A stretch of 64,000 bases of DNA, taken from contig JAEUTH010000017.1 in assembly GCA_016788165.1 (NCBI GenBank), forward strand, positions 1 to 64,000, in the 5' to 3' direction. The translations under genes were made by a program, and so were the position numbers. Below are positions 55,521 through 56,999 of the stretch, one piece after another. The first letter of the stretch is position 1. Each line of letters starts with the position of its first letter. This stretch comes from Bacteroidia bacterium (lineage in GTDB: Bacteria; Bacteroidota; Bacteroidia; AKYH767-A; OLB10). The notes beneath the pieces are model-generated. The model saw only the letters and a list, made by a program, of their open reading frames with translations, did no database searches and was not told where the DNA came from.

Positions 55521-56999
55521 ATGGCAGGCCGCATCATCATAATATTAGTCATGGTTTTAGGGCCGTTTGCTATTTGTGCGCAATTGTATAACATGGGGCA
55601 AACCAATATTGTATTTAATGATGCTGCACGCGACAAACGTAAAATAAGTACCGATGTATTTTACCCGGCAATTAGCAATGGAAAAAATACAGCAATGGCA
55701 GGTGGGCTTAATCAGCAGTTTCCGTTGGTAGTTTTTGCACATGGTTTTGCTATAAATAATGAAGCATATCTACCCATGATAAATAGTTTGGTAAACCAGG
55801 GTTATATAGTTGCCATGCCGCGTACCGAAAGTAGTTTTTCACCCAATCAAATATACTATGCAATGGATCTGGCATTCTTGGTTAATGCCATGCAAGGACA
55901 GAGCTTAATGAAAAACAATTTACTTACCGGGCGCATTAATCGCAAATCATGCATTATTGGTCATAATATGGGTGGCGGTTGTGCACTGTTAGCATCAAGC
56001 TATAATAAAAACATTACAACCTATATCACTTTAGCACCGGCCGAAACCAATCCATCTGCAGTTAATGCAGCCACAAAAATTTATGTGCCGGTTTTAAACA
56101 TTACAGCCGGCAACGATTGTGTTACACCGGCTTCCGAAAATGCAAGTCCTATGTATGAAGCATTATCCGGAAATTGTAAAATGCTTATAAACATAAAAGG
56201 CGGCAGCCATTGCCAGTTTGCAAACTTTAACAACAACTGTAATGCTGCCGAGCAAGGTTGCAGTGTTGCTGCAATAAGCCGAACCCAACAACAGTCAATA
56301 GCCATGCGCTATATATTGCTGTGGTTAGATTTTCGTCTGAAAAATAATTGCACTGCACACTTTACGTTGATGGATGAAACCGCAAATGACAATGCAATAG
56401 AAACTCGGCAAGCCTGTAATAATGCGGTAGTTTGTGTATCGCCAGCAAATAAAACTGCTACTGACATTGGCCCAACTACTGCATTACTTAAATGGAAAGC
56501 TAACACCTGTGCCGCAACCTATGAATTACGCTATAAAAACAGCAATGTCTTGCAATGGATATCGTTAGGTACAATTGGTGCTGTAACCAGTTATATGCTA
56601 ACAGGTTTAACACCGGGCATGAGTTACGATTGGTCATTACGTACAATTTGTGATGATGATGCAACAACCATATCAACCTGGGGTAATAAAAAAACATTTA
56701 CTACTGCAACCCAACAATTAATTGGCTTTAATGCTGAGAATAAACAAGATGTATCCTTCGATATCAATCCCAATCCTTCATTTGGTAAGTTCTCAATGGC
56801 TGCATCAATTAATGCACTTAAGCCCATAGTTATTTCTGTGTATAGCAGTATCGGAAAAAAAGTAAGCGAAACCACTATAATGCCCAAAGAAACAGAACTT
56901 ACCCATTTAGTTGATTTAAGCAACGAATCGTCAGGTATTTATTTTGTGCGCATTAATTACGGTGATATAATTGACACACAGCGCATTGTAAAACGCTAA
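55521..56999 (+). CDS. Secreted alpha/beta hydrolase with Ser-to-Asn nucleophile change, Fn3 and T9SS type A domain
   Basis: 492 residues. Signal peptide (about 1-21). An alpha/beta hydrolase of the PETase/chlorophyllase-like group (about 25-275): VVFAHGFAINNE oxyanion region, then GHNMGGG at 147-153 where the family has GHSMGGG. The nucleophile position is Asn149 (AAT at 55965-55967). The other triad members look intact: Asp199 (AGNDCVTP) and His230 (GGSHCQF). A fibronectin type III domain follows (about 310-400), then a T9SS type A sorting domain (about 420-492, NPNPSFGKF ... SGIYFVRI ... RIVKR). As written the enzyme should lack ordinary serine-hydrolase activity, unless another residue serves. 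It may have become a binding protein. Confidence 0.85.
   Translation: MAGRIIIILVMVLGPFAICAQLYNMGQTNIVFNDAARDKRKISTDVFYPAISNGKNTAMAGGLNQQFPLVVFAHGFAINNEAYLPMINSLVNQGYIVAMPRTESSFSPNQIYYAMDLAFLVNAMQGQSLMKNNLLTGRINRKSCIIGHNMGGGCALLASSYNKNITTYITLAPAETNPSAVNAATKIYVPVLNITAGNDCVTPASENASPMYEALSGNCKMLINIKGGSHCQFANFNNNCNAAEQGCSVAAISRTQQQSIAMRYILLWLDFRLKNNCTAHFTLMDETANDNAIETRQACNNAVVCVSPANKTATDIGPTTALLKWKANTCAATYELRYKNSNVLQWISLGTIGAVTSYMLTGLTPGMSYDWSLRTICDDDATTISTWGNKKTFTTATQQLIGFNAENKQDVSFDINPNPSFGKFSMAASINALKPIVISVYSSIGKKVSETTIMPKETELTHLVDLSNESSGIYFVRINYGDIIDTQRIVKR

Follow-up and report, generated by a model that had tools for sequence, protein, structure and literature searches.

Esterases that are exported by the type IX secretion system (T9SS) and have PET-hydrolysing activity are known from Aequorivita (PET27) and Kaistella jeonii (PET30) (PMC8767016). 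Like the protein described here, they combine a PETase fold with a PorC sorting domain. Unlike it, they have an Asp-His-Ser triad and measured activity, and their substrate motifs are F-M-W and F-M-Y, where ours is F-M-A. Compared by motif, PET38 of Fluviicola taffensis resembles our protein in its sorting domain and F-M-A pocket (Phe76, Met150 and Ala174 in ours) but keeps the catalytic Ser. It was expressed poorly, and no activity was seen (PMC8767016). Among solved structures, the best phmmer match is IsPETase (its top-scoring engineered variant has an E-value of about 1e-13), and we derived the IsPETase numbering from the printed coordinates of that alignment. IsPETase differs in having Ser160 at the position of our Asn149 and Ser121 at that of our Gln110, and it is without the Fn3 and sorting domains.

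Proteins of the alpha/beta-hydrolase fold that have turned into non-catalytic binders are of an already known kind. Neuroligins and the gibberellin receptor GID1 have this fold, with a triad residue replaced, and act by binding; they are eukaryotic, belong to other subfamilies, and carry other substitutions than Asn. An Asn at the nucleophile elbow of the fold is found in the Asp124Asn mutant of the haloalkane dehalogenase DhlA, which Pries and colleagues reportedly saw reactivated through deamidation in 1995. However, that is a laboratory mutant of an enzyme that uses Asp, whereas our Asn is natural and appears to have replaced an ancestral Ser. In the limited literature collection that we searched, we found no work combining PETase with pseudoenzyme, no match to the combination of hydrolase fold, pseudoenzyme, catalytic serine and asparagine, no Asn variant of a PETase-like T9SS protein, and no link between His110 and the catalytic Ser.

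The gene lies in a window of 64,000 nt, the whole stretch of DNA that was analysed; all coordinates are positions in this window, and all features of the gene are on its forward strand. The open reading frame (55521-56999) encodes 492 amino acids without internal stops, and profile matches divide it into a PETase-like alpha/beta-hydrolase domain, a fibronectin type III (Fn3) domain and a type A sorting domain. A frameshift or truncation was rejected because the frame is open across all three. A probable signal peptide, judged by eye, covers residues 1-20 (55521-55580), which are hydrophobic with ICA at the C-terminal end. The catalytic-type domain (residues 22-285, 55584-56375) matches the PET hydrolase-like Pfam profile PF12740 with 53.3 bits, against a curated cut-off of 28, and thus belongs to this sequence family. 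The Fn3 domain (residues 307-379, 56439-56657) exceeds its Pfam cut-off, as does Por_Secre_tail. The latter marks residues 415-488 (56763-56984) as a C-terminal sorting domain of the T9SS type A kind, which scores 37.1 bits with TIGR04183 (cut-off 23) and 32.5 bits with PF18962 (cut-off 27), as expected of type A cargo. The genome also encodes SprA (2547 bits), which makes a type IX system very likely, and the PETase-like protein is probably exported from the cell. Codon usage of the frame resembles that of its neighbours (0.163 versus 0.153-0.193). A scan for promoters and terminators gave no signal above shuffled sequences, and a plasmid collection contained no match.

The preliminary description of this DNA had proposed that the nucleophile Ser of a secreted hydrolase is replaced by Asn, with the rest of the triad and the two accessory domains intact. 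All of this was borne out. Reading codon 149 of the intact frame gives AAT (55965-55967), within ...CIIGHNMGGGCALLA..., and the encoded Asn stands in a GHNMGGG elbow that aligns with IsPETase Ser160 in the phmmer alignment. The same alignment places the triad acid Asp199 (56115-56117) at IsPETase Asp206 and the triad histidine His230 (56208-56210) at His237. A serine esterase is expected to have Ser in G-H-S-M-G together with the triad Asp and His; our protein has the last two, and Asn149 in place of the first. The oxyanion-hole pair of Tyr or Phe with Met is present in the alignment as Phe76 and Met150. Since the encoded residue is Asn, the protein as encoded is not of the Asp-nucleophile type of haloalkane dehalogenases and epoxide hydrolases. 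With an essential catalytic residue replaced and the fold kept, as judged by homology, it has the sequence features of a pseudoenzyme. Cys154, near the elbow, was considered as an alternative nucleophile and set aside because a Ser-bearing homologue (L033) also has Cys there.

We collected 144 homologue rows, four of which have a gap at column 149, from 61 genomes of a search for relatives (the source genome included), one named contig, and 395 class genomes, of which 135 had a match. Identical or overlapping copies of one reading frame were omitted, as were class-genome matches weaker than about E 1e-8, so the counts below rest on the matches listed. A quick tree was made from the 140 rows left after omitting those shorter than 200 residues, and a careful tree from 36 of these, chosen by hand. 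In both, our protein groups with four Ser-bearing proteins (L012, L013, L015 and L016) encoded by other members of its taxonomic family, with support of 96/92 in the careful tree and 93 in the quick one. These four share its domain order (catalytic, Fn3, sorting) but differ in having Ser149 and His110 and a catalytic domain that changes more slowly. Among 13 proteins tested, they are the only ones to share the Fn3 domain. The grouping and the common Fn3 domain suggest that our protein is most likely their orthologue. The gene is single-copy in the source genome, whose two further PF12740 matches are weak ones that miss the cut-off. It is therefore not a redundant duplicate, and we rejected the idea of a recent copy freed by a Ser-bearing paralogue.

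The terminal branch of our protein is long (1.83 changes per column), but to take this as proof of relaxation would be too simple because the comparison includes no other genome of the genus. The catalytic domain of our protein is 44-48% identical to those of the four relatives, which are 67-73% identical among themselves. The corresponding values are 35-41% and 36-51% for Fn3, and 20-22% and 20-30% for the sorting domain. This gives distance ratios of 2.34 for the catalytic domain (bootstrap 1.90-2.89), 1.13 for Fn3 (0.86-1.50) and 1.28 for the sorting domain (0.90-2.01). The catalytic ratio was at or below that of Fn3 in none of 2000 bootstraps and at or below that of the sorting domain in 0.85% of them; with each relative taken in turn as the focal row, it ranged from 0.82 to 1.21. 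The ratios for the Fn3 and sorting domains are compressed, their distances being almost saturated. However, the neighbouring housekeeping gene FTCD is unsaturated and agrees with them: its ratio of 1.20 puts the effect of the genome's isolation at 1.2-fold. By these distances, the acceleration is confined to the catalytic domain.

Within this domain we looked at the 35 columns that are at least 95% conserved among 133 Ser rows. Our protein departs from them at four positions: Ser149Asn, His110Gln (CAA, 55848-55850), Gly196Ala (56106-56108) and Gly243Ala (56247-56249). The Gly of column 243 is also gone in all other non-Ser rows. When only the 130 full-length rows are used, the same four departures are found among 37 columns. 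Some Ser rows depart just as often (8 of 133, or 5 of the 130 full-length ones). Pocket residues are kept: Phe76 (in HGF, 55746-55748), an oxyanion and substrate position that we take to be the equivalent of IsPETase Tyr87, is Phe in 130 of 131 Ser rows in the alignment, and 129 of the 130 full-length Ser rows share the pocket residue Ala174.

Column 110, which aligns with IsPETase Ser121 in the phmmer alignment, is His in 132 of the 133 Ser rows and in none of the six non-Ser rows, ours included. It ranks first of 300 columns for tracking Ser149 in a Fisher ranking (His in 0 of 5 non-Ser rows, L038 being omitted as a near-copy of L037), which cannot serve as a probability because the rows share kinship. 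On supported branches, three independent comparisons pair the loss of Ser with that of His110 (four on the best tree), all in the expected direction; these are too few for significance (sign test, p = 0.25). The sole exception among Ser rows, L031, has Gln110, so that this residue by itself is no proof of inactivity. In IsPETase, Trp185 binds substrate and adjoins residue 186. In ThermoPETase-type variants, Ser121 is paired with residue 186 by engineered hydrogen bonds (PMC10546322). By analogy, this pairing beside Trp185 makes a position of residue 110 near the active-site cleft plausible. A predicted structure made from two sequences was set aside as a means of locating this residue (pLDDT 42.9).

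We consider it likely that a PETase-like esterase gave rise to this protein as a secreted pseudoenzyme, which probably acts as a binding protein at the surface or outside the cell. The preliminary description had offered this reading with a polymer as the ligand. It is the best supported one, given the conserved scaffold, the sorting domain, SprA, the loss of His110 and the acceleration of the catalytic domain, yet as a whole it is partly supported, with a polymer standing beside esters, glycans and partner proteins as a possible ligand. The ancestor would have been a PETase-like hydrolase with a normal Ser-His-Asp triad and export through the type IX system. On the branch leading to the source genome, the nucleophile Ser would have become Asn and the near-invariant His110 would have become Gln, while the fold, the triad acid and histidine, the Phe76/Met150 pocket and the secretion signal were retained. 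The catalytic domain diverged faster than the remainder of the protein. Going by serine-hydrolase chemistry, no acyl-enzyme can form once the nucleophile is replaced, so ester hydrolysis by this route would be lost and the protein would be catalytically dead or nearly so. Some hydrolases do retain weak activity after loss of the nucleophile. More tentatively, the exported domain may now serve as a binder, with an ester, a polymer or a partner protein as its target, and selection may now be on this binding.

Some of the same observations could be those of a gene in decay, in which catalysis was no longer needed and was lost, leaving a protein that has as yet no selected function. An accelerated catalytic domain, the additional loss of the near-invariant His110 and the lack of a match to the gene in 15 of the 24 genomes of the family are all compatible with this. 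But a decaying gene would hardly keep 31 of 35 near-invariant columns along so long a terminal branch, together with a frame open over three domains, neighbour-like codon usage and a sorting domain above its cut-off. We regard decay as unlikely.

Could the Asn instead be a one-base error of sequencing or assembly in a gene for an ordinary Ser hydrolase? It is a single codon in the only genome of its genus in the comparison, and the case of L031 indicates that Gln110 and Ser can coexist. Among the 140 homologue rows with a residue at column 149, 135 have Ser, four Gly, one Asp and none Asn, so that the elbow does not look like a match by chance. A DNA pattern for GHNMGGG was found in one of 395 genomes of the phylum, the source genome itself. 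The preliminary description depended on the homologues not being uniformly Ser; they come near to it, but five of them, in three other lineages, have another residue. It had also pointed out that AAT is one base from the Ser codon AGT. This holds for the codon itself, and AGT or AGC encodes the Ser in 38 of the 135 Ser rows, but the four nearest Ser-bearing relatives use TCN, at least two bases away. Moreover, the domain deviates at three further near-invariant positions, a domain-wide acceleration cannot arise from one miscalled base, and the assembled contigs reach 99.83% completeness at 0.08% contamination. The further changes in the catalytic domain suggest a real functional change and not a sequencing slip, and we judge an error to be quite improbable.

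Including ours, 6 of 141 sequences have a residue other than Ser at column 149, and these belong to no fewer than three or four distinct lineages. The best tree needs four changes and the supported branches force three; a single origin of all non-Ser rows was rejected (p-AU = 0.0008). On these trees, Ser is lost independently elsewhere in the family. Gly replaces it in L036 (GHGSGGG; contig C1 of G002) and in L037 and L038 (GHGMGAS; G009 and G014). L149 (contig C59 of G337, reverse strand, frame 216-2009) has Asp in a GHDFGAA elbow, with the other two triad residues kept, and is thus a candidate for a natural Asp-His-Asp, PETase-like, T9SS-exported protein. All four of these genomes also encode a Ser-bearing paralogue, and the two copies of G002 are about 12 kb apart. 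Two later-found members from the order of L149 have Ser and His110. The sister of L149, L032 (contig C32 of G042), has lost the whole triad (Gly, Lys and Phe), although its frame is full-length and ends in a sorting-type C-terminus; it is the only exception to the presence of the triad Asp and His in rows with residues at these columns. Ser-bearing copies of the hydrolase also occur as neighbours (L029 and L035 on contig C15 of G054, L113 on C1 of G097), and one match in G097 has an in-frame stop.

The preliminary description had allowed for a rare enzyme that works by another mechanism, a possibility that finds little support. The protein would still be an enzyme if His230 and Asp199 activated water without a covalent intermediate, or if Asn149 were converted into a nucleophilic Asp. 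The retention of Asp199, His230, Phe76 and Met150, and the Asp of L149 among intact triad partners, fit such schemes. Against them, His110 is lost, as it is in the Gly members that are incapable of a nucleophile there, the encoded residue is Asn and not Asp, and the sister of L149 has no triad at all, which speaks of decay rather than of a new catalytic line. We find a different mechanism very improbable. The specific scheme in which Asn149 is a latent nucleophile, deamidated after export by His230 and Asp199 to give an Asp-His-Asp hydrolase of the dehalogenase or epoxide-hydrolase type in a PETase scaffold, with L149 as the hard-wired version, would be the boldest reading and is very improbable, given that both proteins have lost His110 and that the sister of L149 is dead.

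PETase-like hydrolases exported by T9SS are mined by profile for plastic degradation, and a profile match does not prove the nucleophile. Our protein is a member of the PF12740 sequence family, yet the lack of the nucleophile means that annotating it as a PET hydrolase or a serine esterase would be wrong. His110 tracks the catalytic Ser almost perfectly, which makes it a candidate active-site residue of this subfamily. Were the protein to bind but not cleave its target, a polyester-hydrolase scaffold would have yielded a natural binder that does not hydrolyse.
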